A DNA stretch of 23,096 bases from a virus, in the IMG/VR virus record IMGVR_UViG_3300027754_000458, positions 1 to 23,096 of that record; one strand, written 5' to 3'. Under the pieces are notes generated by a model, which had not been told where the DNA came from, did no database searches, and saw only the letters and a program-made list of their open reading frames with translations. The position numbers were made by a program, and so were the translations under genes. Shown piece after piece: positions 1 through 22,967 of this stretch. Every line of letters starts with the position of its first letter. Position 1 is the first letter of the stretch.

Positions 1-141
1 GAGGGATCTATTTTTTGGAATTATAAAAATGGTGAGGATAGAATAAGTCAGGATGAGGCAAAGTTTTGGATTGATTCCGCAAAAAAAGAGTGTTCATACA
101 CTAACGAACGAGAAATAAAATACGAACCCCAAGAAATTTAA
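1..141 (+). CDS. C-terminal fragment of an unknown protein
   Basis: An open frame enters from the left edge and ends at TAA 139-141, giving 46 residues that finish in EPQEI. The last base of the stop is the first base of the next ATG (TAATG), a coupled arrangement typical of phage operons and the main reason to believe the frame. The visible part is charged, with two Trp and one Cys, and has no motif I recognise. The start and most of the gene lie outside the window, so no function is offered. Confidence 0.6.
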   Translation, partial: EGSIFWNYKNGEDRISQDEAKFWIDSAKKECSYTNEREIKYEPQEI

Positions 142-884
142 TGTCTATAGACGAAACAAACATAATTTTAGAAAAAAAAAAGAAAGGTAGAAAACCAACA
201 GTAAATAATTATTTTGATGAAAGAGAAGAGAGCGCAGTTAGACTTTTTTTAATTACAGAATCTCAAGAAGAAAGAAATAAAATATATAATGAGTTTTTAA
301 GACATCCTTTAGATAAAATGATATCTTCAATAATAAGAAGGTATAAGTTATATAGAAAAAATATGACTTTTGAAGAAATACACACAGACACACATTCTTT
401 TTTAATGACAAAAATTGAAAAATTTAAACCATCAAAAGAAAAAAAGGCATATTCTTACTTTGGAACAATTTGTAAAAATTACCTAATGGGTCAAATTATG
501 AAGGATCAAAAAGAAATGAATAGAAAAATATCATATGAAGATATATCATCTGATTTGTGTAATAGACCAGAAATGTCTTATTTGATAGATAATGATGATT
601 TAAAATCTGAACATGTAATTAAAAAATTTTTACAAATACTTAAAAATGATTTAGATAAAATAACATCTGACGAACAAGAAAAAAAAATAGGGTCAGCCAT
701 TTATGATCTTTTTGAAAATTATGATACGTTTTTTCCGGAAACAAACAATAATAAATTTAATAAAAATATTATTTTATTTGAGTTAAGAGAAATGACAAAT
801 TTATCAACAAAAGAAATACGAAACTCAATAAAAAAATACAAAAAAATGTATTTTGAGTTAGTTCAAGAATTACTTAAACATTAA
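141..884 (+). CDS. 55: T4 gp55-like late-transcription sigma factor
   Basis: This 247-residue protein resembles the divergent sigma factors that redirect host RNA polymerase to phage late promoters (T4 gp55 family). The N-terminus is basic (KKKKGRK at 12-18). An NYF segment follows at 23-25, then a helical stretch at about 43-95 that alternates acidic and aromatic residues. The best match is AYSYFGTICKNYL at 103-115 followed by a basic helix, which corresponds to the sigma region-2 core (A-x-x-YF-x-x-I-x-x) seen in marine T4-like gp55 proteins. T4 gp55 is 185 residues, so this one is longer. Its ATG overlaps the preceding stop, and the next gene follows after 4 bases. The C-terminus (FELVQELLKH) is hydrophobic, where gp55 carries its sliding-clamp contact; equating the two is inference. 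No homology search was possible. Confidence 0.75.
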   Translation: MSIDETNIILEKKKKGRKPTVNNYFDEREESAVRLFLITESQEERNKIYNEFLRHPLDKMISSIIRRYKLYRKNMTFEEIHTDTHSFLMTKIEKFKPSKEKKAYSYFGTICKNYLMGQIMKDQKEMNRKISYEDISSDLCNRPEMSYLIDNDDLKSEHVIKKFLQILKNDLDKITSDEQEKKIGSAIYDLFENYDTFFPETNNNKFNKNIILFELREMTNLSTKEIRNSIKKYKKMYFELVQELLKH

Positions 885-4983: not shown

Positions 4984-6450
4984 ATGTCAATTAATAACTC
5001 TTATTTTAGTAGAAACAATACTATCGTATTAAATAGTTATGTTAATACTGGTAGAAATCCTGTTACACAACTTTATTATGGTGATGGTGGTCTCTCAAGT
5101 CCAATCGGTTATTCTCGTTTTATTTTTGATTTAGATTTAACACTTCTAAAAGAAAAATCAGCAACTGGAGTAATATCAACAGGATGCACAACCCAAATCA
5201 CACACGTATTAAAGATGACAAACACCTCATCGTTTAATGAAGAATTATTAAATACATCTATGCCTGACGGTAGTCTTAGGGCAACATCGTTTGATTTAAT
5301 ACTTTTTAGAATACCACCAATAGATTTTGACGATAATCAACCTCAATATTGGGATGAAGGGGTTGGGTATGATTTTTATGATTATGGGGAACCATTAGGT
5401 CCAAACAGAGATTATTCAGAAAGACCATCAAATTGGTTTCAAAGAACAACAATAAATAATTGGCAACAACAAGGAATATATAATAATTTAAATTTAGGTT
5501 CGGTTCCTTTTTCATCTATCACAATTTTAGATATACAACATTTTGAGTTTGGTAATGAAAATATTGAATTTGACATGACAGATGAAATTAATATGATTCT
5601 TAACGGGACTATTACTGGATCCACAGGATGGGGAATCGCATACTTACCTGATGTAGAGAATTTAAGGGGAACAACGGGTAATTATTCGGTTGGGTTTTTT
5701 ACAAGACACACACAAACATTCTATGAACCATATCTACTTACAACCTACGATGATATAATCAATGATGACAGAAATAATTTTAGTTTAGGAAAAGTAAACA
5801 AACTTTATTTATATATCTATGAAGATGGGGATTTTAAAAATTTAGACGAAACACCATTAGTTTCTATTTCTGATTCGGGAGGAATACCAATACAAGGATT
5901 ACAGAATTTAACAACTTGTTTAAAAACTAAAGGAGTTTATGAAGTAACAATTCCGCCATTAACTGGATATAAAACTCCTTGTATGTTTACGGATATTTGG
6001 TCAAATTTAAAACTAAATGGTTTTAGTTTACAAAATCAAATAAACGAATTTACTGTTTATACATTTAGAAAATCAATACAAATTGGAACATCAACAAACG
6101 ATCCATCACAATACGGGTTTTCTTATTATGGAATAAAACAAAATGAAAAGATTTTAAATACCGACATTAGAAAAGTGGGGGTTATAATTAAACAAGCTTA
6201 TACAACTAATAAACAACTTCCAAACGTAGATGGACAATATAGAGTTTATGTAAAAGAAGGAACAACAGAAGTAACAGTTCAAGATTGGACTGAGTTAAAT
6301 AGAACCCCAAATGAATACTACTTTATCTTTGATACGAGAGATAAAATACCTAATCAGTATTTTATAGATATTAAAGTGACGACCTCAGGTCAAGTTAATG
6401 TTTACAAACAACAAATAAATTTTCAAATTGTAAATGAAAAAGTAGAATAA
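4984..6450 (+). CDS. Beta-rich virion structural protein (DNRLRE-like start)
   Basis: This 488-residue protein begins with an N-terminal region (NNTIVLNSYVNTGRNPVTQL, then SRFIFDLDLTLL) that has the layout of DNRLRE-type beta-sandwich domains: an extended strand, an 'npv..lyyg' loop, then a strand ending in FDLDL. The rest is rich in Thr, Asn, Tyr and aromatic residues (YYFIFDTRDKIPNQYFIDI near 445), typical of tail or baseplate-attached proteins. No signal peptide or membrane segment is seen. It follows the hub gene after 20 bases that contain a TATTTAT motif and a T4-type TATAAATA (4968-4975). A tail-fibre attachment or baseplate accessory role is likely, but the family is not certain. Confidence 0.75.
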   Translation: MSINNSYFSRNNTIVLNSYVNTGRNPVTQLYYGDGGLSSPIGYSRFIFDLDLTLLKEKSATGVISTGCTTQITHVLKMTNTSSFNEELLNTSMPDGSLRATSFDLILFRIPPIDFDDNQPQYWDEGVGYDFYDYGEPLGPNRDYSERPSNWFQRTTINNWQQQGIYNNLNLGSVPFSSITILDIQHFEFGNENIEFDMTDEINMILNGTITGSTGWGIAYLPDVENLRGTTGNYSVGFFTRHTQTFYEPYLLTTYDDIINDDRNNFSLGKVNKLYLYIYEDGDFKNLDETPLVSISDSGGIPIQGLQNLTTCLKTKGVYEVTIPPLTGYKTPCMFTDIWSNLKLNGFSLQNQINEFTVYTFRKSIQIGTSTNDPSQYGFSYYGIKQNEKILNTDIRKVGVIIKQAYTTNKQLPNVDGQYRVYVKEGTTEVTVQDWTELNRTPNEYYFIFDTRDKIPNQYFIDIKVTTSGQVNVYKQQINFQIVNEKVE

Positions 6451-8619: not shown

Positions 8620-8829
8620 ATGGAAAAAGAAAATACAAATTATGGTAATTTATTTGGAACCATTGATTTATTAAGTGAAGAACATCTTGAAATAATACTA
8701 TCAACAATGAATAATGACCACGCTTTATATTACCTTATTGAGGCGATTAAATCCGCACATTCTAAAGGAGTGTTCACTATTGGTGAATCTGAAGTGATAT
8801 CAAAATCTATTAGGACTTTAATTAAGTAA
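8620..8829 (+). CDS. Small unknown phage protein, 69 residues
   Basis: This plus-strand gene lies between two minus-strand genes. The protein has a well-formed globular look: LLSEEHLEIILSTMNNDHALYYLIEAIKSAHSKGVFTIGESEVISKSIRTL reads as three or four helices with regular hydrophobic spacing and no low complexity. That, and its AT-rich but structured codons, make it more than chance. It diverges from the 8584 gene across 35 bases and converges with the HNH gene, sharing 12 bases at their 3' ends. No function recognised. Confidence 0.65.
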   Translation: MEKENTNYGNLFGTIDLLSEEHLEIILSTMNNDHALYYLIEAIKSAHSKGVFTIGESEVISKSIRTLIK

Positions 8830-9507
8830 TTTATTAGATTTTTTAATATTTTCATCACCCCACATAGGTTGTAGATTATCTAATGACCAACATTTCATAA
8901 ATTCACTATCTCCCATTTCTTGAATATTAAAATGAGTTATAGGCAATTTATGGTCTACATGCCACTCACCGTAATTGTCCCAAGTCATTGTATCCTTAAA
9001 TTTTAATTCTAAATGTGTTATTAATTGTTCAGGTGTGTATTTTAGTATGTCAAAATAGTGTTTGTTTTTTTCTACATTACTCTCCTTTAATACTTGATAT
9101 ATCGCGGTTCTGAAATTACTGATTAATTTATAGAGGGGATCTCTCGCTTTACGATTTCTTTCGTAATCACGTTTTATTTGCCTAATTTTATCAACATTAT
9201 TTTCTCGGTATTCTTTAATGTATTTACTTAAATGTTCTTTATTTTTTTCCGCCCAATTTTTATGATTTTCACTTTTTCTTTTTTTTGTTTCAGGTTTTGA
9301 TTCATATTTTTTTATGGCAACTTCTCTACCGCCAATATTTCTCCTACCGGATGGTCCAAGAATAACACCATTTTCTTTAAGTATTCTTAATATTTGTTGT
9401 TTGTTTAATCCTAATTTTTCTGATATTGTTTGACTCCCAATCAAATCCTCGTTATACATCTTAAGAATATCGTCTATTTCTTTTTGTGATGGAATATATT
9501 TCTTCAT
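8818..9507 (-). CDS. HNH homing-type endonuclease
   Basis: This 229-residue protein starts at ATG 9507; an upstream in-frame start at 9534 would add nine unrelated residues. Residues 21-47 form a helix-turn-helix (IGSQTISEKLGLNKQQILRILKENG). A long basic helical linker follows at about 75-120 (NWAEKNKEHLSKYIKEY). The catalytic core is at 181-225: EWHVDHKLPI gives the paired H183 and D185-H186, and NLQPMWGDENIKKSNK gives the conserved Asn and Lys of phage HNH enzymes. No zinc-binding CxxC pairs are present. Such free-standing nucleases cut related genomes at intron-less sites and spread into them. It sits downstream of the MCP gene, beyond a terminator, with a TATATTTATA motif 3 bases before the ATG. 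Confidence 0.85.
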   Translation of the reverse strand: MKKYIPSQKEIDDILKMYNEDLIGSQTISEKLGLNKQQILRILKENGVILGPSGRRNIGGREVAIKKYESKPETKKRKSENHKNWAEKNKEHLSKYIKEYRENNVDKIRQIKRDYERNRKARDPLYKLISNFRTAIYQVLKESNVEKNKHYFDILKYTPEQLITHLELKFKDTMTWDNYGEWHVDHKLPITHFNIQEMGDSEFMKCWSLDNLQPMWGDENIKKSNKLLN

Positions 9508-9510
9508 AAT

Positions 9511-9520
9511 TATAAATATA
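9511..9520 (-). promoter_or_regulatory. TATTTAT motif upstream of HNH gene
   Basis: The minus strand reads TATATTTATA, ending 3 bases before the ATG at 9507. At that distance a T4-style transcription start would fall inside the gene, so it may act as a translation or upstream element instead. Confidence 0.3.
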
Positions 9521-9564
9521 CAACATTCAACCAAAAAATCAATTGTTATTTAATTTAAATAAAA

Positions 9565-9611: not shown

Positions 9612-11522
9612 TTATCTCAATTCTCTTAAATCGAATGTTCTAACACCATCAACGGTAATGCGGCCATAAAACCTGTTGTTTACCATTTTTTTCGCGTATC
9701 TCGTCATTATTCCTTTGATCGGAGTAAAGTTGAACGGGTTATACATTGTAGGTGTTAATTGTAGAGGTACGTACGGTGCGTAGATGTAACCTGTGTCTAA
9801 CAATGACGTTCCTTTGTGTCCTACTAACACTTGGTTAGCTGGGAAGTAAGGGTCACGGTAAACTTGGTAACGACCTGATAATGTACCAACTCTTTCAATA
9901 CCCATGTTATACTGATCTTGATCAGGAGCCGCATTAGATACGTGGAAGTATTCTAAATCGTCAAAGATAGCTGAAACTTCAGAAGATACAACAATCCAGT
10001 TAGCTCCACCTCTTAATGTAGATTTGTGGATTTGTGCTGACAATTGGTTAATTGCAGTAATCAAAGTTTGGTTCCAGTCTTTTTGAGTATAAGAAGCTTG
10101 GTTAGCAATTCTTCTCCATCCGTTGTAATCCCAACGTAGGTTCCAAGCTGCACCTTTACGTAAGTCACGTAAAATTTCACGGTCAATCTCAGCAGCCACT
10201 TGTTCTGACAATAATGCTGTTAATTCAGCTTCAGCGTCAATGTTATGGAATGCTGCAACGTCTTGTGCCAATTCAGGAGACCATTGTGCTCTTAGTTTTC
10301 TTTCTGTAACAGAAACTGTAACTGACTCAAGGTCAAAAGAAACTTCACCAATTTCATCTTCAAACTCAAGGTTTGCATATCTTCTATAGAAAGCTACAAA
10401 AGAACCACCTGAAGTACCTGAGTAGATTGTACTACCTGTGTATCCGTCAAGTGATGTTGCGTCACAATCAGCACATATAGGACAAGAAAGATCTACTTCT
10501 AAGTATATACAACCATTTTGAGAACAGATGTCATTATAACTTCCACCATTTCCAGTGTTAGTATTATATGCATTACCACTGTTTCCAAATGCGGTTTGTG
10601 TGTTAGTACTTGTTGGAGTAACAATACCTTGACCGTAAATTTGAGTTACTACTCTAAATAATAGAGGAACATACTGACCAGCAGCATTTGTAAATATATT
10701 ACAAGGTGTTGTAGATCCCGAAATAATTGAGGTTCCGTAAATTCTTAAATCAGAAAGAAAAGACTCTGTATCAATTTCACTACCGTCAGGACCAATTAAT
10801 TTTCCAGTTCCAGCATTTGCAAAACCACAAAGTTTCATAATAACTTTTCTTGTGTTTCCTGAATAAGCATTTAATGATGCATCAACTAAGCTACTACCAG
10901 CCCATACTTGTACAGTTGTGGAAGCAGTAACTGCGGTCCATTTACCTTTAGAGTAATCAAACAATCCTGGAGGATCTAAACCAGCCTCATTACCTTCGTA
11001 AAATGAATCATAAAGATTTTTTTTGTAAGGGAAGTTAGTTGCACTTGCATCACCGTAACCACTGTTTGGTGTTTGAGTTGCAGCCGCGTTAGGTGCTCCA
11101 TAAGGAGCGTAATGTTCACCACCAGAGTTTTGTAATCCAGTTTGTAAGTTTCCATTAGCATCGTATGAAGATGAATTAGCGTATCCTTGAATTTTAGGCA
11201 CAAAATAGAATAATTTACCAATAGGTAAGTTCATAGCTTGTACAGATACGATGTCGTTAGCCAATAATTTAGAGAATACTCTTCTTACGATTGGAAAAAC
11301 AACTGTTTCAAAAGCTCCGTTAGATGCTCCGTCTGATGTTGCTTCGTTAATTAAGTGAGACGCTTGGTTCTCATATAATTGTGCAACGTTTTCTTTTAGG
11401 TGGCCTCTAAGACCTTCAAGGAATCCTAAACGATCCCATTTGTTAATTGTGTCTTCTTTGATAACTTTGAGGTGTTTTAACCCGATGTTACCAACAAGAC
11501 CTGATTCTAATAATGCTCCCAT
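9612..11522 (-). CDS. 23: Major capsid protein (gp23-like)
   Basis: This 636-residue protein forms the capsid shell. It carries an N-terminal delta region followed by SHLINE-ATSDGASNGAFETVVFPIVRRVF at 56-83. The I-N-E at 58-60 is in the position where gp21-type proteases cut gp23 (after Glu65 in T4). The HK97-like fold continues with LLANDIVSVQAMNLPIGKLFYFVP at 86-109. The C-terminal half has RKLRAQWSPELAQDVAAFHNIDAEAEL at 408-434 and GVRTFDLRE at the end. T4 gp23 is 521 residues; the extra length lies mainly between about 120 and 375, a surface-insertion region with a cysteine cluster (333, 338, 347, 350, 353). The gene is visibly less AT-rich than its neighbours, as expected for a highly expressed gene. 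Only 30 A-rich bases separate it from the scaffold gene. Confidence 0.95.
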   Translation of the reverse strand: MGALLESGLVGNIGLKHLKVIKEDTINKWDRLGFLEGLRGHLKENVAQLYENQASHLINEATSDGASNGAFETVVFPIVRRVFSKLLANDIVSVQAMNLPIGKLFYFVPKIQGYANSSSYDANGNLQTGLQNSGGEHYAPYGAPNAAATQTPNSGYGDASATNFPYKKNLYDSFYEGNEAGLDPPGLFDYSKGKWTAVTASTTVQVWAGSSLVDASLNAYSGNTRKVIMKLCGFANAGTGKLIGPDGSEIDTESFLSDLRIYGTSIISGSTTPCNIFTNAAGQYVPLLFRVVTQIYGQGIVTPTSTNTQTAFGNSGNAYNTNTGNGGSYNDICSQNGCIYLEVDLSCPICADCDATSLDGYTGSTIYSGTSGGSFVAFYRRYANLEFEDEIGEVSFDLESVTVSVTERKLRAQWSPELAQDVAAFHNIDAEAELTALLSEQVAAEIDREILRDLRKGAAWNLRWDYNGWRRIANQASYTQKDWNQTLITAINQLSAQIHKSTLRGGANWIVVSSEVSAIFDDLEYFHVSNAAPDQDQYNMGIERVGTLSGRYQVYRDPYFPANQVLVGHKGTSLLDTGYIYAPYVPLQLTPTMYNPFNFTPIKGIMTRYAKKMVNNRFYGRITVDGVRTFDLRELR

Positions 11523-11552: not shown

Positions 11553-13241
11553 TTATTTTATTTTTGTCATTAAATCCTTCATTCTTAAAAATTGTGGATT
11601 CTCATACGTTTTTGATTCAATCAAATTAACTGAAGATCCTGTATCAGCAGTTTTATTAACAGTTCTTTGAATTGACTCGTTTATTTTTTGTTCACCTGTA
11701 GAACCATTAGATGATAATTCACCTTTAATTGTTCTATATAGGTTTTTTGATTCTTTTAAAGATTCAAGATTATCAAATCTTCTTAAAATATTTATTTTTT
11801 CTTGTTTTGTTGTTGAATGTTCGGTAAAAAGTCTCGTAGCGTAAGCCAAGTTAGAATTAAATACTGCAACTTCATTTAATTTTGTTCTAAAAACATCAAG
11901 AGCCGCTTTGTATTCTTCATTTTTTTCTTTTAATAAATAAACTTCATTATTTGAATAGTTTTCCGAAATTTTAAATGGACTGTATTCATAATTTCTGTTG
12001 TTTGTTTTCGCTTTTCTTAAACCACGGCTACCATCTTTAGATCCATTACCATAAGTTCTTGCCGCTTCTTTGGTCTCAACTTTTTTCACCATAGACGATT
12101 TTCCCATGTCTGAACTTTCCTTATATTCAAATTTTGGTTTTCCAGTTCCAGTAGCTTTAATACCTTTACCAAACGCTTCTTTTCGTTTTTCGTTAAATCC
12201 GCCACCCATATTAGGTTTTTTGTCATATGAAAATTTAGGACCTCTACGGTTTTCAGTTCCTTTTGATTTTAAAGATTTTAAAGATTTTTTAACAGCTTCC
12301 ATTACTCCTTCAACAGAATTCATGTCCATACCATCATCATCCATCATTTCATTCATGTATGATCCAGGACATGATGAGTCATCTGGATTTTCACGACAAA
12401 ATTCTACAAATTCTCTATCGTATTCATTAATTTCGTTTCTATCCATACCTTCCATAGATTCCATTCTTCCCATACCTTCAGTATCATCTCCATCTATTTC
12501 CAACTCATATGATGTTTCTTCATCATCATCATCCATGTCTGAAAATCTATTTCTACCTCTTGGTTCAAAACCCATTTCTTCATCATCCATGTCATCCATG
12601 TCTGAAAATCTATTTCTACCTCTTGGTTCAAATCCCATTTCATCATCCATATCATCCATGTCATCCATATCATCCATGTCATCCATGTCATCCATGTCAT
12701 CCATGTCACCCATGTCACCCATGTCATCCATTTCGATTTCATATATTAGTTGATTACGATTATTACCGTAAGATTCTCCTAATTGAATCATATATTCATT
12801 ATCACCGTCTTTAAGGTTTATATTACCACCTTCTTTTTTTATTACGATTCCATCCTCATCACCCATAGCTTTAAAAACTCTAAGAACTTCCGCGTCTGAC
12901 GCATCTGTCATATCAATAGTTTCATCATCCATTTCAGGGTCCATTCCCATTTCAGGGTCCATTCCCATTTCAGGGTCCATTTCCATGTCTTCATCATCCA
13001 TTTCCATGTCTTCATCATCCATTTCCATGTCTTCATCATCCATTTCCATTTCAGGATCCATTTCCTCATCGTCAACGGGTTCTTCAATCTCATCTTGTTC
13101 TCTAAGAGATTCTTTTACTAATTGTTTGATTTCTTCACTCATTGTAGATTGAAGTATTCCTTTTGCGTTCTCTTGAAGAGTCTCTTCCAAATTTCGTATT
13201 TGAAATAAAGCGTCTTCTACTACATTTTTGTTATAATTCAT
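11553..13241 (-). CDS. 22: Prohead scaffold protein (gp22-like)
   Basis: This 562-residue protein forms the temporary core on which gp23 assembles and is then degraded by the prohead protease. The diagnostic part is the C-terminal segment LNEVAVFNSNLAYATRLFTEHSTTKQEKINILRRFDN, followed by SLKESKNLYRTIK, matching the conserved core of gp22-type scaffolds. T4 gp22 is 269 residues, so this one is about twice as long. The extra length comes from two acidic Met/Asp repeat regions (about residues 56-107 and 171-239) and a basic, Lys/Gly-rich middle (about 315-425). Several I-x-E and L-x-E sites could be cut by the protease. It sits directly upstream of MCP, as in T4, after a terminator that separates it from the protease unit. 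Confidence 0.9.
   Translation of the reverse strand: MNYNKNVVEDALFQIRNLEETLQENAKGILQSTMSEEIKQLVKESLREQDEIEEPVDDEEMDPEMEMDDEDMEMDDEDMEMDDEDMEMDPEMGMDPEMGMDPEMDDETIDMTDASDAEVLRVFKAMGDEDGIVIKKEGGNINLKDGDNEYMIQLGESYGNNRNQLIYEIEMDDMGDMGDMDDMDDMDDMDDMDDMDDMDDEMGFEPRGRNRFSDMDDMDDEEMGFEPRGRNRFSDMDDDDEETSYELEIDGDDTEGMGRMESMEGMDRNEINEYDREFVEFCRENPDDSSCPGSYMNEMMDDDGMDMNSVEGVMEAVKKSLKSLKSKGTENRRGPKFSYDKKPNMGGGFNEKRKEAFGKGIKATGTGKPKFEYKESSDMGKSSMVKKVETKEAARTYGNGSKDGSRGLRKAKTNNRNYEYSPFKISENYSNNEVYLLKEKNEEYKAALDVFRTKLNEVAVFNSNLAYATRLFTEHSTTKQEKINILRRFDNLESLKESKNLYRTIKGELSSNGSTGEQKINESIQRTVNKTADTGSSVNLIESKTYENPQFLRMKDLMTKIK
12525..12731 (-). repeat. Asp/Met repeats and a duplicated 16-residue unit in scaffold
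   Basis: Residues 171-200 are mostly (M-D/G-D) triplets, encoded by tandem 9-base-like DNA repeats. They are followed by two copies of MGFEPRGRNRFSDMDD at about 202-217 and 223-238. The DNA copies are nearly identical (near 12540-12640), which suggests recent duplication. Confidence 0.85.
12921..13076 (-). repeat. Acidic MDDEDME repeats in scaffold
   Basis: Residues about 56-107 contain repeats of a seven-residue acidic unit (DMEMDDE) followed by three MDPEMG-type units. The DNA repeats in register. The strong negative charge resembles scaffold and core proteins that exclude or mimic DNA. Confidence 0.85.
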
Positions 13242-13591: not shown

Positions 13592-14320
13592 TTATTTATC
13601 TAAATAATGAGTTAATCTTTTCATTAAGTCAAGCGATTTATTACCAGACTCCCCAACATTTCTTTCTACGGACATTCTTTTTTCTTCATCTAAATTTTCT
13701 TCGTATTTCATTCTATCGTTTCTATCTGTGAATAAGTATGCACCAGGTGTAGAAGGTGAAGATACAAGATCAAAACATATTAATTCAAAATCATCCTGAA
13801 CTTCATTTTGTTCCCCAACTTTTTTTAATGACCCAACACCACGAGAAGATATTCCTAATGTAACTCCTTGACGAAGATAGTTTGCCGCTAAATCACCTTT
13901 TGTTGATACAATACCTCTTTCGTGAAATCCTGGACTTGTCAGTAATTTTAATTTACCCAATAAAACAGGACCGTCCCACCATATTTCTGTGATCATGTGA
14001 GAAACCCTATCTAAATCAATTAGAGAAGATTCAGGATGGTTTAATTCAGAAAGAGATGTTCCTTTATTAATAATTTTTTTATAATTGTCAGCTTCCCTTT
14101 TTAATATTTTTTCAGGATAAATTCTTCCGTTTCTATTTGGGGTATTGTATTTTTGTAAAACAGCGTAAAACTCAAATGGTTTTGAATGATCCAACATATC
14201 TCGATTTTCTCTTATCATAGATAAGTTTCTTCGTTCATTTGGGTCTATATAACCAGCATCATACTCAACAAGAATCCCACGTCCAGAATCTTTTGGTCCC
14301 AATATTTTTAAGTTTTCCAT
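13592..14320 (-). CDS. 21: Prohead core protease (gp21-like, S77)
   Basis: This 242-residue serine protease (T4 gp21 is 212) matures the prohead by cutting scaffold, internal and capsid proteins after I/L-x-E. Family landmarks are all visible: YNTPNRNGRIYP at 58-69, the catalytic His in SELNHPES (H95), the nucleophile in LGISSRGVG (Ser158 or Ser159), and DLVSSPSTPGAYL at 184-196. The N-terminal extension and acidic C-terminal tail (about 200-240) may be self-processed. It sits upstream of a DUF4494-like gene and, past a terminator, the scaffold and MCP genes, in T4-like order. An AGTATTTATA motif lies 14 bases upstream of the ATG. Confidence 0.95.
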   Translation of the reverse strand: MENLKILGPKDSGRGILVEYDAGYIDPNERRNLSMIRENRDMLDHSKPFEFYAVLQKYNTPNRNGRIYPEKILKREADNYKKIINKGTSLSELNHPESSLIDLDRVSHMITEIWWDGPVLLGKLKLLTSPGFHERGIVSTKGDLAANYLRQGVTLGISSRGVGSLKKVGEQNEVQDDFELICFDLVSSPSTPGAYLFTDRNDRMKYEENLDEEKRMSVERNVGESGNKSLDLMKRLTHYLDK

Positions 14321-14334
14321 CTATCTATTTTATA

Positions 14335-14344
14335 TATAAATACT
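14335..14344 (-). promoter_or_regulatory. TATTTAT motif upstream of protease
   Basis: The minus strand reads AGTATTTATA, ending 14 bases before the ATG at 14320 and overlapping the stop of the preceding gene. The spacing is close to that at 4984, 8584 and 15796. Confidence 0.45.
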
Positions 14345-14810
14345 AAATAGTTTCAGTTTCTTTCTTTATGATTTTTGTATTTCCATTTTTAGTAAGATAA
14401 AATTTAAAATATTTGTTTTTATTCATTATTTCCCCATATATTAATTTAATTAAACTTTTTACAATTCTTTTTAATTTTGGAGATTTAAAATCCATTTTTT
14501 CTAACAGAAACAAATTAATCTCTAAATTCATAAATGATTTTTTTTTAAGATGTAATCCGCTAGTTCTTAAATCAAGATCAACAATAAATTTAGTATCAAT
14601 AATATCTTTATTTATGTTATTTAAAAGTGCGTGTTTAACGGATCTTGACATGTTTAATACGACCCTATTCCAATCTTCAGCCTCATATTTTGGTTCTACC
14701 CAACTTTGTATGTTTATAAAAATTGATTTTAAATTTTGGGAATCAATTGTCCCGTATTGTGATTTAAATGATCTATACCCGTTTAATTTGGCGGTTTTTC
14801 CTTTCTTCAT
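14343..14810 (-). CDS. Uncharacterised basic protein, 155 residues
   Basis: The N-terminus is basic (MKKGKTAKLNGYRSFKSQYG). Residues 30-75 include a Trp-rich helix (IQSWVEPKYEAEDWNRVVLNM), and a strand-like IDTKFIVDLDLRTSGLHLKKKSFMNLEI follows at about 70-97. The remainder is helical and Lys-rich. No family recognised. It lies between the bS21 gene (divergent, 87-base gap) and protease on the same strand, in the region where T4 has its prohead core genes 67 and 68, but the sequence shows no acidic core-protein character. Its upstream gap contains an inverted repeat. Confidence 0.75.
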   Translation of the reverse strand: MKKGKTAKLNGYRSFKSQYGTIDSQNLKSIFINIQSWVEPKYEAEDWNRVVLNMSRSVKHALLNNINKDIIDTKFIVDLDLRTSGLHLKKKSFMNLEINLFLLEKMDFKSPKLKRIVKSLIKLIYGEIMNKNKYFKFYLTKNGNTKIIKKETETI

Positions 14811-14840
14811 AAATTTTCTTCATATACTTAATGTTTATTT

Positions 14841-14875
14841 TGATATAATTATAATTAATTATTATTGTTATATCA
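14841..14875. repeat. Inverted repeat between bS21 and its divergent neighbour
   Basis: TGATATAA (14841-14848) and TTATATCA (14868-14875) are perfect 8-base arms around a 19-base spacer that itself holds a 12-base palindrome (14851-14862). Its midpoint is about 40 bases from the bS21 ATG and 47 from the ATG at 14810, a good place for an operator acting on both genes. AT-rich background makes chance possible. Confidence 0.4.
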
Positions 14876-14897
14876 ACAAACTTAATAAAATGAAAAT

Positions 14898-15086
14898 ATG
14901 TTAATTGTGACAGTAAAAAAGGGGGGTATTGAGAAATCCTTAAAACTTTTAAAAAGAAAATTAATTAATACAAATCAAAATGAAATCTTATTAAATAGAA
15001 AAGAGTATATTAAACCATCTATACTTAATAGAGAAAAAAACAAAAAAGCGATTTATATTCAAAAATTAAAATTAAATAAAGATTAA
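14898..15086 (+). CDS. rpsU: Phage-encoded ribosomal protein bS21
   Basis: This 62-residue protein matches bS21 along its length. It has the short first strand MLIVTVKKGG, the basic helix IEKSLKLLKRKL at 11-22, the turn, then LLNRKEYIKPSILNRE at 31-46 (the RxxYxKPS signature) and a final helix KKAIYIQKLKLNKD. bS21 joins the 30S platform near the 3' end of 16S rRNA. In Bacteroidota it helps hold the anti-Shine-Dalgarno sequence in a pocket; the Tyr at 53 aligns with the tyrosine I recall as contacting that sequence in the flavobacterial ribosome. The gene is on the strand opposite to its neighbours and so needs its own promoter. No Shine-Dalgarno is visible. Its stop overlaps the convergent gene's stop. 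Some other phages also carry bS21. Confidence 0.85.
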   Translation: MLIVTVKKGGIEKSLKLLKRKLINTNQNEILLNRKEYIKPSILNREKNKKAIYIQKLKLNKD

Positions 15087-15796
15087 AGACTTTCTTTAAG
15101 TTGTTTTAAGTGATAATAGTTTAATTCTGAAAAAGATTCTTTTTGAATTTTTAATAAAACTTGGTCTATTGTATTAATTGTATCAGAATCGTTTTCATTG
15201 TCTTTCTTTTCATTTAACTTTTCTAAAACCAAATCCTTAGTGTCATTGTAATTTTCAATTAATTGTGTTTTTGGTGTTGATAGAATTTTTTTAAGTTCTT
15301 TTTGTTCTGATTCTTTTAATGAGGAAATAAATTTCCCAACAGTTTTATTTGCAACATTTAACATTGACTTCAATGGAACATTAATAATTTCTTTTTTTTC
15401 CTGTTCTTTAGTTTTTAAAATTTCGCAAATAATTTTTTTACTTTTAATTTTACTTTCTAAAGTTAAAACATTGGTTGAAAACAGATTATCTATTTCTTTA
15501 TATTTGTTTTCGCATTTTATGTGACCAACCCACATTTTAATTTCTTTTAAACTATAAGGATTTACCTTATTAGTTAAATTCTCATATGCGGTGATTGATT
15601 CATTTATAAATTCATTTACAATACTTTCTTGAAGTCCCTTTTTAGTTGATAATTCATCATACAAAAAAAATATTCTAGATATGTTTTTGTTTTTTAACAC
15701 TAACTCCTCAAATATAAATAAGTTATCTTTTAAAGTTCCCTTTTTATACGACTCACTTAAGTAAATTTCTATTTTTGATTTTAATTCTCCAAACAT
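15083..15796 (-). CDS. Uncharacterised helical protein, 237 residues
   Basis: The protein is nearly all helix by eye and rich in Lys, Glu, Leu, Ile and Asn. The start is MFGELKSKIEIYLSESY, with an L-S-E|S possible protease site at 13-16; LKSMLNVANKTVGKFISSLKESEQKEL runs from about 142 to 168, and a charged tail follows. Low aromatic and high charged content would suit a prohead core or scaffold-associated protein, and it lies between portal and protease, where T4 has genes 67 and 68. That is inference; there is no sequence match I can point to. It shares 4 bases with bS21 at convergent stops. A GATATTTATT motif ends 13 bases before the ATG. Confidence 0.75.
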   Translation of the reverse strand: MFGELKSKIEIYLSESYKKGTLKDNLFIFEELVLKNKNISRIFFLYDELSTKKGLQESIVNEFINESITAYENLTNKVNPYSLKEIKMWVGHIKCENKYKEIDNLFSTNVLTLESKIKSKKIICEILKTKEQEKKEIINVPLKSMLNVANKTVGKFISSLKESEQKELKKILSTPKTQLIENYNDTKDLVLEKLNEKKDNENDSDTINTIDQVLLKIQKESFSELNYYHLKQLKESL

Positions 15797-16279: not shown

Positions 16280-16289
16280 AATAAATACT
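16280..16289 (-). promoter_or_regulatory. TATTTAT motif before 152-residue gene
   Basis: The minus strand reads AGTATTTATT, ending 3 bases before the ATG at 16276 and overlapping the TAG stop of portal. It is too close to the ATG for a T4-style -10 box driving this gene. Confidence 0.3.
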
Positions 16290-18102
16290 AATCACCAAGA
16301 AGTTTTGATAATTGATCTTCTAAATCACCTAAAGAATTATTTATTTTTTTAAAATCTAAAAACTCATCTTCATTAAAATCATCTTCATTTGATTCTAATA
16401 TTAATTTATTTTTATCTCTTCTCATTGATTCAGGTAGTGGTGCTCCTGCATCAGGTGGTGGTGGTGCTCCTCCTGCGTCAGGTGGTGGTGGTGATCCTCC
16501 TGCGTCCGCACCTGGTGCTCCTCCCGCTGGTAATGTTGTTCCTGTTACGGGTTTGTAAAGTCTATCTACGGTGTCAAAAATTCCCGTTCTAGTTACTATT
16601 GTTGCCGTATTATCTAATTCCGCAGAAACAGCTCTTTCCATTCTAATTTGTAATAGTTCGTTTTTAATTTCATCATCAGAAAACCCAAAAATGTGTTTTT
16701 TGGCCCAAGTAGCAGAAACTGGTTGAATTGATTTGGGAATTTCACTAACCATGTCTTTATATAATGTGATTTTTGTCGCCCAAACGTCGATCATTAATAA
16801 ATCGGCTTGTTTTGATGGGTTTGTAAGTTGTAATGTAAAATTTGATAATTCATCCTCAAATCCCATTAAAAATAAATGAATGATTGCTATTTTATTCATT
16901 TCTGCAATTGCGGATTTTTGAATCCTGTTAATTGTTCTTGCGAAACGAATATCTAATAAAGATAAATTCTTACCATCACCAACTGGTTCTTCAAACCCTA
17001 AATAAGCCTTTGGAACACGAAGAGCGGTAACTAATTTCTTTTGGATGTATTCAATATCTGCAATTTCAGACAAATTGGTTCCACCAGGTAATGTTTCAAT
17101 TGGCATAGTTGCTGCGGCATCCCTAACAGGAATAAAGTAATCTTGATCCACGGCCATTTGATTAAATCTTAAATCTACATTTCCCGTTTTTCTATCAACA
17201 ACCTGATCTCTTTTAAATTTATTTGCAACTCTTTGAACGTATGGTTCAACATCTTTGTCGTCCATATTACCAACAAATACTTTAAAAACTCTTCTTTCGG
17301 GAGCTCTTGACGTTCTATAAATTAACATTGCATCTTCTGCCAATACCAATTGTTTCCAAATACGACGAGCCTTTTCTAACATTGATGTCCCATAAGGTAG
17401 TTTTCTATCATCACCTAATAATCTAAAATGCCCAATCTCCCAAGTATTAAATTCAGTGCTTTTAACTTTCCAAATAAACTTAAGATCTTTTCTATTAACA
17501 TTAACCGTTGCAGTGCTAGTTTTAGATTCAATACCCCTCTCTAATCTTTCAATTTCAATATTTGGTAATTGCATACAACCTGTTACCCCTTTTTCTGAAT
17601 CTAATTTTAGATAAACAAAATTATCACCATACTTACACATGTTTCTAATCCACATTGGTAAATTGGTATTAATGTCTAAAACATTAACAAACAAATCAAC
17701 TAAAATACTTTTTATTCTTTTTGACTCTGAATACACCTGAAGAACATATCCATCCTGATTTGGTGTTGTTGATTCTTCAGAATATATATCTAAAGCTGTT
17801 GAAATTTCGGGGGTATACTCCATTGATTCGTAATCATAAAACGCAGCTAATCTTGTAGGTTCATAATAAACAGCTTGAGTATAAAGATTATTTTCAACTT
17901 TAGTCCAGTTAGCCCCCAAATAAAGGGATTGTTGTTTTTGTAGTTTTTCTCTTTCGTATTCTGCCTTGTCTTTAGTTTTTAAAATTTCTGATTTATCTAA
18001 CCTATAGTCAGGTTCCCCTTGACCTAATGTCCCATCAGGGCCAAATGTTTTAGATAGTTTTTGCCAAACTGTTAGATTTTGATTTTGATTATTATTTTCC
18101 AT
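16288..18102 (-). CDS. 20: Portal vertex protein (gp20-like)
   Basis: This 604-residue protein forms the dodecameric ring at one capsid vertex through which DNA enters and to which TerL docks. T4 gp20 is 524 residues. Recognisable stretches are YLGANWTKVENNLYTQAVYYEPTRLAAFYDYESM at about 41-74, then EISTALDIYSEEST, the stem region with YRTSRAPERRVFKVFVGNM near 263, and ADIEYIQKKLVTALRVPKAYLGFEE near 345-370. An extra low-complexity Gly/Pro/Ala segment (about 521-559, with PPPPDAGG repeats) precedes an acidic C-terminal helix; T4 gp20 lacks such an insert. It is separated from TerL by one small TP-repeat gene. A TATTTAT motif lies 20 bases upstream. Confidence 0.95.
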   Translation of the reverse strand: MENNNQNQNLTVWQKLSKTFGPDGTLGQGEPDYRLDKSEILKTKDKAEYEREKLQKQQSLYLGANWTKVENNLYTQAVYYEPTRLAAFYDYESMEYTPEISTALDIYSEESTTPNQDGYVLQVYSESKRIKSILVDLFVNVLDINTNLPMWIRNMCKYGDNFVYLKLDSEKGVTGCMQLPNIEIERLERGIESKTSTATVNVNRKDLKFIWKVKSTEFNTWEIGHFRLLGDDRKLPYGTSMLEKARRIWKQLVLAEDAMLIYRTSRAPERRVFKVFVGNMDDKDVEPYVQRVANKFKRDQVVDRKTGNVDLRFNQMAVDQDYFIPVRDAAATMPIETLPGGTNLSEIADIEYIQKKLVTALRVPKAYLGFEEPVGDGKNLSLLDIRFARTINRIQKSAIAEMNKIAIIHLFLMGFEDELSNFTLQLTNPSKQADLLMIDVWATKITLYKDMVSEIPKSIQPVSATWAKKHIFGFSDDEIKNELLQIRMERAVSAELDNTATIVTRTGIFDTVDRLYKPVTGTTLPAGGAPGADAGGSPPPPDAGGAPPPPDAGAPLPESMRRDKNKLILESNEDDFNEDEFLDFKKINNSLGDLEDQLSKLLGD

Positions 18103-18489: not shown

Positions 18490-20268
18490 TTATTTTATTA
18501 AACCACCAAATAACCAACTATATTTTTGATAGTCTTCTTTTGATGCGCCATTATTATTTAACCCATATCTTTCATTTATAACATTTTGATTGGGTATTGA
18601 AGGATCAAAATGGGCCTCTTTAGACACCGATTCATTATTTACTACAGCCCATGACTCAATCATTGATTTTGCCTGTTCTGTGGCTTTTTCTAATTTTGAA
18701 AATGATGATTCAGCAATGTAGATTGCCATTGAAATTCCCATTATTAAATCATCATGTTGGCCTTTTTGGTGATCTGGTCTTCCATTAATATAAATAAAGG
18801 TATTCATCTCATTGTATAATCGAACACTTTTAATTTTAAATTTATGTCTTACCCACTCCTCAAACGCAGCTATTATTTGAACTCGTTTATTGTTAAAATT
18901 TATTCCAGGAATTTTTTCAACAGACGTTTTATTGTTTGCCCAAATATTAAACGGATCAATTCCCTCAACGTAAAGACTTCTATATCCAAGTTCTTGCATT
19001 TTTCTAACTGTTGTAATTCCCATTCCTCCTGTTATATCGACAACAACAAATGCGTTATACATCATTCCCCACTTATATGCTATTTCAGCTAAAGTATCTG
19101 GAGGAATTTTTCCAACATATTCAAAAACCTGTTCTCTATTATCAAAATCAACAATTTGAATTGATGAAAAATCCTCACTATCACCTCTAGAAACGTCAAC
19201 CCCCATAATGTATTTATGTCCCTCAACAGGATCGTTCCAAATCCAAATAGAATTACCCATAAGTTTTGACTTGGGTTCTTCAAGTGAGTTATTTTTTATT
19301 TCCTCAAGTTGATTATTGTCAAACACGTTATCTCCAGACCCTAAAAACTCACAATTTAATTCCTGATTTATTTTTCTTTTGTCATATTTAAGTTTTTTAA
19401 CCATTTTTTCATACCAAGGGGAACATGGTTTGTATCCTTGTTTAAAAAAATGATAAAGTTCTTCATAATCTCTATTGTATGGGTCACTATTTGAAAATGA
19501 TATATTTTTTGATAGGTCGTGATCATCGCGATTTAACAAATAATGAACAATATCGTTTGTTGGAACTAAATATAATTCTTTTGTATATCTTGGATCTTTA
19601 TACCAATACATTTCGGAAATTTTAAACTGATTCATTCCTTTTAATGCTTGGTCGTAAATTTCATAATAAATTGGGTCATACCCATTGGGGGTGGATATTA
19701 CTATTACTTTACCACCGGTGGATAAGGACGCCATACAAGCCGCCCAAAAATCATTATCTGCCTCAATAAAGGCTGCCTCATCAAAAACAAGAATAGTTGG
19801 TGTAAAACCACGAAGTGCATCTTTTGATGTTGCAACCGCCTTAACCTCAGATCCATTTGTTAATTTGTAATGTCTTTGTGAATTTTTTTCAACAGCAAAA
19901 CCAGCTCCAACCCATGATGGCCATTGAGACACAAAGGCCCTAATTTTATTTGCCATTTCTTGAGATGTGTCAAGTTTGTTTGCAATTATTAATATTTTTT
20001 CTGGTTGAGTTTTTTTTGCAAATACTAATTTTTTTGAAACCCAAGCTGCCGTAACCGTTGATACACCAGCTTGTCTATATTTTAAAGCAATATTTTCTTC
20101 ATATTCTTCATAATCTTTAAGTAGTAATATTTGATCGGGAAATAATTCTAATGGAACATACATTGAAACTGTGTTATCGTATGTTTGTAGATATGTTCTA
20201 AGGGCGTACGGAGTATCGTTCATACACTTAACATATTCAATCATTACTTGCTCTTTAGATAATCCCAT
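18490..20268 (-). CDS. 17: Terminase large subunit (gp17-like)
   Basis: This 592-residue protein (T4 gp17 is 610) is the ATP-driven DNA packaging motor and headful nuclease. The ATPase domain has KYRQAGVST at 63-71 in the Walker A position, Walker B ILVFDEAAF at 159-167 with D163 and the catalytic E164, and the coupling motif STPNG at 192-196. The RNase H-like nuclease domain has GVDVSRGDSEDF (D358), FVVVDITGG (D411) and QHDDLIMG (D506/D507). The Walker A lacks the usual lysine before Ser/Thr and instead has Lys63 at the beginning, like the deviant motif of lambda gpA. It lies upstream of the TP-repeat and portal genes. Confidence 0.95.
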   Translation of the reverse strand: MGLSKEQVMIEYVKCMNDTPYALRTYLQTYDNTVSMYVPLELFPDQILLLKDYEEYEENIALKYRQAGVSTVTAAWVSKKLVFAKKTQPEKILIIANKLDTSQEMANKIRAFVSQWPSWVGAGFAVEKNSQRHYKLTNGSEVKAVATSKDALRGFTPTILVFDEAAFIEADNDFWAACMASLSTGGKVIVISTPNGYDPIYYEIYDQALKGMNQFKISEMYWYKDPRYTKELYLVPTNDIVHYLLNRDDHDLSKNISFSNSDPYNRDYEELYHFFKQGYKPCSPWYEKMVKKLKYDKRKINQELNCEFLGSGDNVFDNNQLEEIKNNSLEEPKSKLMGNSIWIWNDPVEGHKYIMGVDVSRGDSEDFSSIQIVDFDNREQVFEYVGKIPPDTLAEIAYKWGMMYNAFVVVDITGGMGITTVRKMQELGYRSLYVEGIDPFNIWANNKTSVEKIPGINFNNKRVQIIAAFEEWVRHKFKIKSVRLYNEMNTFIYINGRPDHQKGQHDDLIMGISMAIYIAESSFSKLEKATEQAKSMIESWAVVNNESVSKEAHFDPSIPNQNVINERYGLNNNGASKEDYQKYSWLFGGLIK

Positions 20269-21101: not shown

Positions 21102-21492
21102 AAATAACTTCTTTTTCAAATTGTAATACTATATCTCTTTCATATAGTTTGTTTTTAACAGATTCTTCATTTTCACCAAAATGGAAAACCATTCTTTTAA
21201 TTGAAGAGAAGTCTTTATCTTCATTTTCCCACCCTAAAGAAATAACTCCATCCATAGAATCAATAACCGAAAAAACGTCAGAGTTTTGTATTAAATCAAA
21301 CATAATCTCCTCATTCATTAATGTCCCAACTTTTTTTATATATTCAATATCTGGAGGTAATGGATATCCATTTGCTGGTTTTGAATCCCAATACTCACCA
21401 AAAACATCTAAAGTATCTGAAAATATAAATTCATAAATGTTGTCCCCTTTATAATTGGGGCCTAAACCATTTATGTAAATTAAATAATTCAT
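21091..21492 (-). CDS. Uncharacterised protein, 133 residues
   Basis: This is a compact, mixed alpha/beta, acidic protein. It starts MNYLIYINGLGPNYKGDNIYEFIFSDTLDVFGEYWDSKPANGYPLPPDIEYIKKVG and continues with FDLIQNSDVFSVIDSMDGVISLGWE at about 65-89. It has no low complexity or repeats, which sets it apart from both neighbours. Its ATG overlaps the preceding gene's TGA by 4 bases (coupled), and its end overlaps the next gene by 11 bases. It lies in the packaging/head module. No family can be named from memory with confidence. Confidence 0.8.
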   Translation of the reverse strand: MNYLIYINGLGPNYKGDNIYEFIFSDTLDVFGEYWDSKPANGYPLPPDIEYIKKVGTLMNEEIMFDLIQNSDVFSVIDSMDGVISLGWENEDKDFSSIKRMVFHFGENEESVKNKLYERDIVLQFEKEVIYEN

Positions 21493-22967
21493 ATTAATTT
21501 TCCGAACTTAGTAACTTTAACTTCATTAATGCCTTCTTTAAATATTAGATTACCTTTTGTTGATAAACCAATAAGTTTTACTCTAGGGTTTTCTTTTATA
21601 TACTCTAACGCGGAATCCAATTGATGTGTGGATTCAGATAATCTTATAATATTTTGTTTATTGTTTTGATAAACTTTATTTGATCTCCTTTCCCTATCAA
21701 GTTCGTATTGGTTTTTTTCGTCTTCACTTATAATAAAATATTTTGACAAAACTTTATCAGCTGAAGACTCCGCAAATGTTCCATGTGTAAATCTTTCAGG
21801 AGTTGGGTTATATATTCTTCTATTTCTTCTTTTTAAATGATAATCTTCGGGGTCATAATCTTCAAGTTGTTCAGATGCGGAAGATGTGTATGCTCCTCCC
21901 ATAAAATCTTGATATGCATCTCCAATATTATCATAACCTTCCGCCATTTCAGGTTCTTGTGGTGGTTCTGGCATAACTTCAGGTGGTGTTTCCGTGTCTT
22001 CATCACCAAATGAATCATCTTCTTCTTCTTCTCCTTCATCATCAACCCCCTCTAGTTTACCAATAATTTGTTCAATATCGTCTTCATCTAAAACATCCAC
22101 ATCTATAGCAGAAAGAATTGAGTTGATTATATATTTTACTTCTTTATTAGAAAGATCGCTTTCTTCTTCATAAGATCTTATTTTTTGAGCTAGTTTACCA
22201 ACTAAAATTTGTATCCTTTTTATTTCCGAAACTTTTTTCTCTTTTGGTTTTTCGTCGTCAAGTTCCTCTCCTTCCATATCAGGTGGTGGAGTGCCCATGT
22301 CACCGCCCATGTCAAGTGGTGGAGCACCCATGTCACCGCCCATATCAGGTGGTGGAGCGCCCATGTCACCGCCCATATCAGGTGGTGGAGCGCCCATGTC
22401 ACCGCCCATATCAGGTGGCGGAGCACCCATGTCTCCTCCCATATCAGGTGGCGGAGCACCCATGTCAAGTGGTGGTGGAGTTCCTAAATCTGCGGGTGGA
22501 GGTGGAACCCCTAAATCTGCAGGTGGAGGTGGAACCCCTAAATCAGGTGGTGGTGGAGTCCCTAAATCTGTTGGTTGAGATTTTTTTTTAGTCTTTAGTA
22601 TGAACTTTTTTTTTTGCTCACCAATTAGTGAGATACCTTCTTCATTTTCGTGAAGGACATTTATTTCCCTCACCATTAAGTTAAGTCTTTTCAAAGCCTG
22701 TGAATAGGAAGAATAATATTTTCTACCTTTCATTGGGTCAATATAATCAGAATCGGACTCATTTATTGACATTTTGATGATATATCCTTGTCTTTCTTTT
22801 TCAATTTTGTATAAGTTTCCATCCGCTAAAGAAATACTATATTCAGTAGATTTTGTTTCATTTACACTTTGTGGAAAATTTTCATTATAACGAGAAATTT
22901 CAATCATTCGTCTAATCTTATCAATTCCTTGAAGTTTTTCGCTTCCAATAGGTTTAATTCCTCCCAT
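21489..22967 (-). CDS. Repeat-rich acidic structural protein
   Basis: This 492-residue protein has an N-terminal globular part (1-130), with SISLADGNLYKIEKERQGYIIKMSINESDSDYIDPM at about 44-79. Next come two proline-rich repeat blocks (134-167 and 168-233). An acidic region follows at about 290-345 (EGEEEEDDSFGDED), and a C-terminal ~150 residues holds basic and helical stretches ending in VKLIGLSTKGNLIFKEGINEVKVTKFGKLI. Disordered acidic and Pro/Met/Gly-rich linkers suggest a virion or prohead-associated protein. Several I-x-E sites could be cut by the prohead protease. Family not recognised; the repeats make homology searches unreliable. It is the first gene of the minus-strand head module, with two TATTTAT motifs upstream. 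Confidence 0.8.
   Translation of the reverse strand: MGGIKPIGSEKLQGIDKIRRMIEISRYNENFPQSVNETKSTEYSISLADGNLYKIEKERQGYIIKMSINESDSDYIDPMKGRKYYSSYSQALKRLNLMVREINVLHENEEGISLIGEQKKKFILKTKKKSQPTDLGTPPPPDLGVPPPPADLGVPPPPADLGTPPPLDMGAPPPDMGGDMGAPPPDMGGDMGAPPPDMGGDMGAPPPDMGGDMGAPPLDMGGDMGTPPPDMEGEELDDEKPKEKKVSEIKRIQILVGKLAQKIRSYEEESDLSNKEVKYIINSILSAIDVDVLDEDDIEQIIGKLEGVDDEGEEEEDDSFGDEDTETPPEVMPEPPQEPEMAEGYDNIGDAYQDFMGGAYTSSASEQLEDYDPEDYHLKRRNRRIYNPTPERFTHGTFAESSADKVLSKYFIISEDEKNQYELDRERRSNKVYQNNKQNIIRLSESTHQLDSALEYIKENPRVKLIGLSTKGNLIFKEGINEVKVTKFGKLI
22269..22466 (-). repeat. Six tandem 33-base repeats (DMGAPPPDMGG)
   Basis: Residues 168-233 are six in-frame copies of an 11-residue unit, DMGAPPPDMGG. 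The fifth reads PPL and the sixth reads DMGTPPPDMEG. The central DNA copies are nearly identical, pointing to recent expansion by slippage or unequal recombination. Confidence 0.9.
22467..22568 (-). repeat. Four DLG-PPPP repeats
   Basis: Residues 134-167 are four units of the form DLG(T/V)PPPP(A), eight or nine residues long. They probably derive from the same ancestral module as the adjacent 11-residue units. Confidence 0.85.

Follow-up and report, generated by a model that had tools for sequence, protein, structure and literature searches.

A Bacteroidia-type bS21 gene in a phage head-gene block and its possible independence from host Shine-Dalgarno feedback

Why should a phage carry a gene for the small ribosomal protein bS21 among its head genes, and how might such a protein influence the messages that are translated during infection? 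Bacteroidia are abundant bacteria, and their ribosomes ignore Shine-Dalgarno (SD) sequences because bS21 helps to hide the anti-SD. The stretch of DNA analysed here (the window) is a virus record of 23,096 bases. In the initial annotation it was described as carrying a 62-residue bS21 gene with an RxxYxKPS signature and Tyr53, located in a T4-like head module on the strand opposite to its neighbours, and it was suggested that the product could replace host bS21 and either keep ribosomes favouring the SD-less phage messages or alter the reading of SD-bearing host mRNAs. The sequestration of the anti-SD by bS21 and the autoregulation of rpsU, on which this suggestion drew, are both published for Flavobacterium johnsoniae.

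A bS21 gene within the head-gene block

The position, strand, length, signature and tyrosine of the described gene all proved correct. The terminase, portal, protease and major capsid genes were likewise all located on the minus strand, leaving bS21 as the sole plus-strand gene within the T4-like head block:

18490..20268, minus strand: large terminase (TerL; PF03237, phrog_2)
16288..18102, minus strand: portal protein, gp20-like (PF07230, 259 bits)
15083..15796, minus strand: 237-aa conserved phage protein, convergent with bS21, the two genes overlapping by 4 bp at their stop codons
14898..15086, plus strand: phage rpsU (bS21), ATG to TAA, 62 aa, ORF intact, without a Shine-Dalgarno sequence, Tyr53 equivalent to F. 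johnsoniae Tyr54
14840..14876, no strand: inverted repeat TTGATATAATTATAAT / ATTATTGTTATATCAA, 16-nt arms, 88% complementary
14811..14897, no strand: 87-bp spacer separating the divergent bS21 and 155-aa genes, aligned across 18 syntenic loci
14343..14810, minus strand: conserved phage protein of 155 aa, divergent to bS21 and shared by each of the 18 syntenic bS21 loci listed
13592..14320, minus strand: prohead core protease, gp21-like, S77 (PF03420, 78.9 bits)
9612..11522, minus strand: major capsid protein (MCP), gp23-like (PF07068, 250 bits)

The ORF matched Pfam family PF01165 over residues 4-53 (E 2e-7; 31.1 bits against a cut-off of 27), the profile whose absence had been named as grounds for giving up the bS21 identity. 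The NCBIfam equivalog TIGR00030 also matched (E 1.3e-5), at 24.9 bits and thus under its cut-off of 28.95, a value meant for naming cellular equivalogs, and the window bS21 is therefore a divergent member of the family. A phmmer search against the PDB returned bS21 chains only, among them 9i5v_9 (9e-8) and 7jil_z of F. johnsoniae (6e-7), and in this alignment Tyr53 was paired with F. johnsoniae Tyr54; the signature reads RKEYIKPS and occupies residues 34-41. The PHROGs search assigned no family to the protein. Its predicted model was helical (pLDDT 90.7), and since a fold search with this model produced no significant match (top PDB matches being mitoribosomal small-subunit chains, E 0.16), the fold was left out of the evidence.

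In 18 syntenic loci, bS21 was found between the same two gene families, the divergent 155-aa and the convergent 237-aa family, and in most of these its stop codon overlaps or abuts that of the convergent gene. In 74 contigs the sequence upstream of the 155-aa gene was long enough to be assessed; bS21 was present in 62 of these and absent from 12, and all 12 of the latter keep both flanking families, mostly with a short gap between them. As both families occur in these 12 contigs without it, bS21 is an insert that the stable head block can do without. The possibility that the 155-aa protein is a dedicated partner of bS21 was considered and is weakened by the same 12 contigs, in which the 155-aa gene occurs without bS21. 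This protein gave an AlphaFold pTM of 0.81, chance-level matches only in the Pfam and PHROGs scans, and a single strong match in the fold search, an uncharacterised myovirus protein. In one bS21-less relative (L251) a 148-aa ORF (MKIIITENQYKLIKENISLK...) at 2423-2869 occupies the gap between the flanking families, on the same strand as them; the bS21 site may thus be a spot where accessory genes come and go.

Other genes of the window were noted in passing. The gene at 8818-9534 (minus strand), which adjoins the capsid gene, matches Endonuclease VII / HNH-like proteins (phrog_1035, E 1.2e-15) and resembles a free-standing homing endonuclease. A low-complexity acidic protein with D/M/E repeats is encoded at 11553-13241 (minus strand), in the scaffold position ahead of the capsid gene, while a further low-complexity protein, with GAPPPDMGGDM repeats, is encoded at 21489-22967 (minus strand).

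Conservation and divergence among phage bS21 proteins

A first scan of viral contigs identified 58 bS21 loci, and loci added by a neighbour-gene search brought the set to 121, representing 74 distinct phage proteins. Pairwise dN/dS values, which derive from non-independent pairs, had a median of 0.26; of the 733 informative pairs, 96% stayed under 0.5 and not one exceeded 1. Judged by these ratios, the phage bS21 genes are under purifying selection. Given the relatives in the first scan, the size of the full set and the dN/dS median, the ORF is a real bS21 gene, beyond what chance would produce. Five loci (L050, L051, L059, L040 and L055) carry a phage bS21 in other genomic contexts, without the neighbour genes seen in the window.

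The alignment and tree that the initial annotation had called for were built from 149 bS21 sequences. The phage proteins made up a single cluster (90/88) nested among the Bacteroidia-type sequences (97/96); the finer forks are unsafe, since the tree was built on 64 columns only. At the position of F. johnsoniae residue 54, 64 of the 74 distinct phage proteins carry Tyr, five His and three Phe (the remaining two being L040, a pattern artefact that does have Tyr, and L052, a truncated copy), and the window protein, with Tyr53, is aromatic at this site. The host-conserved residues, numbered as in F. johnsoniae (K40, S42, R46, K51, A52, Y54 and Q56), are retained in 85-100% of 71 phage proteins. 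Loss of the residues that contact 16S rRNA had been put forward as the other observation that would count against the annotation; in the window protein and its phage relatives the C-terminal residues around Tyr54 are retained, contacts beyond Tyr54 being judged by residue conservation only. These comparisons support classing the window protein as a Bacteroidia-type bS21 in which the C-terminal residues near Tyr54 are preserved. Residues 23-37 diverge in the phage set: the host residue is absent, or all but absent, at positions 24, 27, 28, 30 and 37 (n=71), and T28 is replaced by Q in 97% of the 71 proteins.

In the INPHARED phage records, bS21 matches were obtained only in huge uncultured phages (41-48% identity) and in no isolate. 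The nearest isolates by TerL are the Flavobacterium phages 'immuto', at 25% identity.

Leaders and upstream motifs

In F. johnsoniae, rpsU is autoregulated via an extended SD that is read by ribosomes lacking bS21 (McNutt et al. 2023, PMC9976891), and pairing between leader and anti-SD at or below -13 kcal/mol, the threshold of the same authors, was taken as the sign of an autoregulated rpsU. All 80 Flavobacterium-type rpsU leaders, paired against the F. johnsoniae-type 16S tail, lay between -17.6 and -23.8 kcal/mol. In a sample of 70 genomes across the whole phylum, for which start codons were picked by script such that individual rows may be wrong, 39 rpsU leaders reached -13 kcal/mol. None of the 74 distinct phage bS21 leaders reached -10 kcal/mol with either the common or an alternative anti-SD (median -1.1, best -7.0), and the window leader, at -0.9 kcal/mol, is far from the -13 kcal/mol of an extended SD. 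The strongest phage leader is that of L050. As its leader lacks the strong SD feedback element of the host, the phage gene should sit outside the host autoregulatory loop.

The other 25 genes of the window also pair weakly (median -2.2, best -9.7 kcal/mol), so that a strong SD is absent from all 26, in agreement with the earlier description of the phage messages as SD-less. Random leaders of matching composition were equally weak (median -2.4 kcal/mol), and active depletion of SD sequences in the phage leaders was rejected on this basis. The missing SD of phage bS21 may consequently be passive, since the phage's other genes lack it too, at the level of random sequence.

The plus-strand TATATCA, which forms one arm of the inverted repeat at 14840-14876, is an element conserved upstream of phage bS21: 60 of the 74 distinct loci carry it within 60 bases upstream of the gene, compared with 1.8 for mononucleotide shuffles, a count in which kinship among loci overstates independence. 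A second motif, ATATTTA, was identified upstream of 10 of the 26 window genes (0.6 expected), chiefly head and structural genes; 29 of 74 loci have ATATTTAT ahead of bS21. Motifs of the ATATTTAT type, often GATATTTAT, were observed 10-40 bases ahead of start codons in the window, including those of the genes at 4984, 6474, 7880(-), 11553(-), 13592(-), 15083(-), 15818(-), 18490(-) and others. This is likely to represent a promoter motif for late phage genes, and in reverse complement it is similar to the T4 late box TATAAATA. Additionally, the 247-aa product of 141-884 (plus strand) weakly matches sigma-70 region 2 and the late sigma family phrog_234 (E 0.021); it is a possible gp55-like late sigma factor, and such a match would fit a T4-like late programme.

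Possible roles of the phage protein

We consider it somewhat probable that a Bacteroidia-type bS21 made late by the phage replaces host bS21 on the 30S subunit and keeps ribosomes SD-blind, to the benefit of SD-less phage messages. The protein would be produced late alongside the capsid proteins, in line with the late co-expression of bS21 published for relatives, and would take the place of host bS21 on the subunit, where its conserved C-terminal half, including Tyr53, would hold the 16S 3' tail sequestered. The retained C-terminal residues suggest that the phage protein does keep the anti-SD sequestered, by analogy with F. johnsoniae, and because Tyr54 is kept, favouring SD-less messages is the more consistent of the two options initially proposed. 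Ribosomes would in this way remain SD-blind, which would suit the phage. As the phage bS21 message has no SD, its translation would be independent of bS21-lacking ribosomes and could proceed on ordinary SD-blind ones, while host rpsU needs bS21-lacking ribosomes for good translation. By filling bS21-lacking subunits, the phage protein might then keep the SD-dependent host rpsU repressed, and the altered reading of SD-bearing host mRNAs, the other option, would amount mainly to this repression. Replacement would tend to run one way, because the phage message needs no SD while host rpsU is kept off. Such repression presupposes that the F. johnsoniae model applies in the host and that the anti-SD is still sequestered; as only 39 of the 70 phylum-wide leaders lie at or below -13 kcal/mol, the autoregulation argument is valid for some hosts only. 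The fuller proposal, that phage bS21, having escaped the host SD feedback, takes over from host bS21 and, by way of the host autoregulatory loop, also stops its renewed synthesis, in effect a one-way takeover of the anti-SD switch, is tentative, and we hold it to be possible but doubtful. Other observations count against the late replacement of host bS21: the lack of an SD may be passive, given the equally weak random leaders, the gene is not essential to this phage type, since 12 of 74 related contigs are without it, and the diverged residues 23-37 might weaken function.

Much of the same evidence would also suit a phage that does no more than top up a loosely bound ribosomal protein when late translation is heavy, leaving message choice unchanged and with SD-less leaders as the phage default. 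The C-terminal anti-SD contact region is conserved as in the host, the leaders of all phage genes are no more SD-less than composition-matched random sequence, and bS21 is co-expressed late in relatives (PMC9723584); however, residues 23-37 are consistently unlike the host in the 71 phage proteins, T28 for instance being replaced by Q in 97%, which suggests a specific change rather than a copy of the host protein, and we judge simple replenishment to be unlikely. The same divergence at positions 24, 27, 28, 30 and 37 speaks for a model put forward by Chen et al. 2022 (PMC9723584), in which the altered segment changes the mRNA entry or exit side of the 30S platform such that phage messages are preferred; these authors also found this region divergent and located where mRNA would bind. 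Phage and Bacteroidia host messages, though, share the lack of an SD and an A-rich region around the start (PMC9976891 for the host determinants), with no obvious feature by which a ribosome could tell them apart, and this model appears distinctly improbable. A role away from the ribosome, for instance as a protein packaged in the head, could draw on the location of bS21 among head genes, on a presence that does not strictly follow that of its neighbours, and on the suggestion of encapsidation by Chen et al. (PMC9723584), but conservation of the rRNA-binding C-terminal half with its Tyr54 equivalent speaks against it, making such a role very improbable indeed.

A phage supplying bS21 free of the host SD feedback would offer a natural means of testing whether the make-up of the ribosome governs the choice of messages and whether phages exploit rpsU autoregulation.

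Comparison with known systems

The architecture of the locus and the takeover hypothesis are already in the literature (PMC9723584, PMC9976891), and the interpretation, reasonable and plausible as it is, had been put forward before. Chen et al. 2022 (PMC9723584) described bS21-encoding Bacteroidetes phages in clades a-e, with freshwater Bacteroidetes as hosts, and set out the Tyr54 argument, the ribosome takeover hypothesis and the discussion of SD sequences, together with the late co-expression of bS21. In their phages, as in the window, bS21 is encoded on the strand opposite to the surrounding TerL-portal-protease-MCP block, between two conserved hypothetical genes, with Tyr or another aromatic residue at position 54. 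They differ in that a co-expressed neighbour gene was reported missing from two bS21-less outgroup phages, whereas here both neighbour families are present in 12 bS21-less contigs; whichever of the two families it represents, that neighbour is not strictly tied to bS21 in the larger set. The terms 'autoregul' and 'promoter' do not occur in their paper, and the contrast between phage and host leaders, the bS21-less contigs that keep both flanks and the TATATCA element were not found in PMC9723584 or PMC9976891. When the literature was searched for later studies connecting phage bS21 with Bacteroidota and SD sequences, with subscription papers mostly out of reach, nothing further emerged on the point.

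The bS21 of Pelagibacter phage HTVC008M enters E. coli 70S ribosomes (Mizuno et al. 2019, PMC6375957, as cited in PMC9723584); going by its description there, it is phage-encoded like the window protein but belongs to a proteobacterial host with SD-using ribosomes. A further close comparison is F. johnsoniae bS21 (PMC9976891; structure 7JIL), which is of the same family and shares the Tyr54 equivalent and the conserved C-terminal residues, whereas the phage protein diverges at residues 23-37 and has an N-terminal loop shorter by one residue, and the phage gene is without an extended SD. McNutt et al. 2023 (PMC9976891) discussed exchange with phage bS21 and regarded autoregulation as a possible host counter-measure. 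To this published picture the leaders analysed here add a testable refinement, namely that phage bS21 may escape the rpsU feedback, and the leader contrast turns published speculation into a reporter experiment that is feasible in F. johnsoniae.
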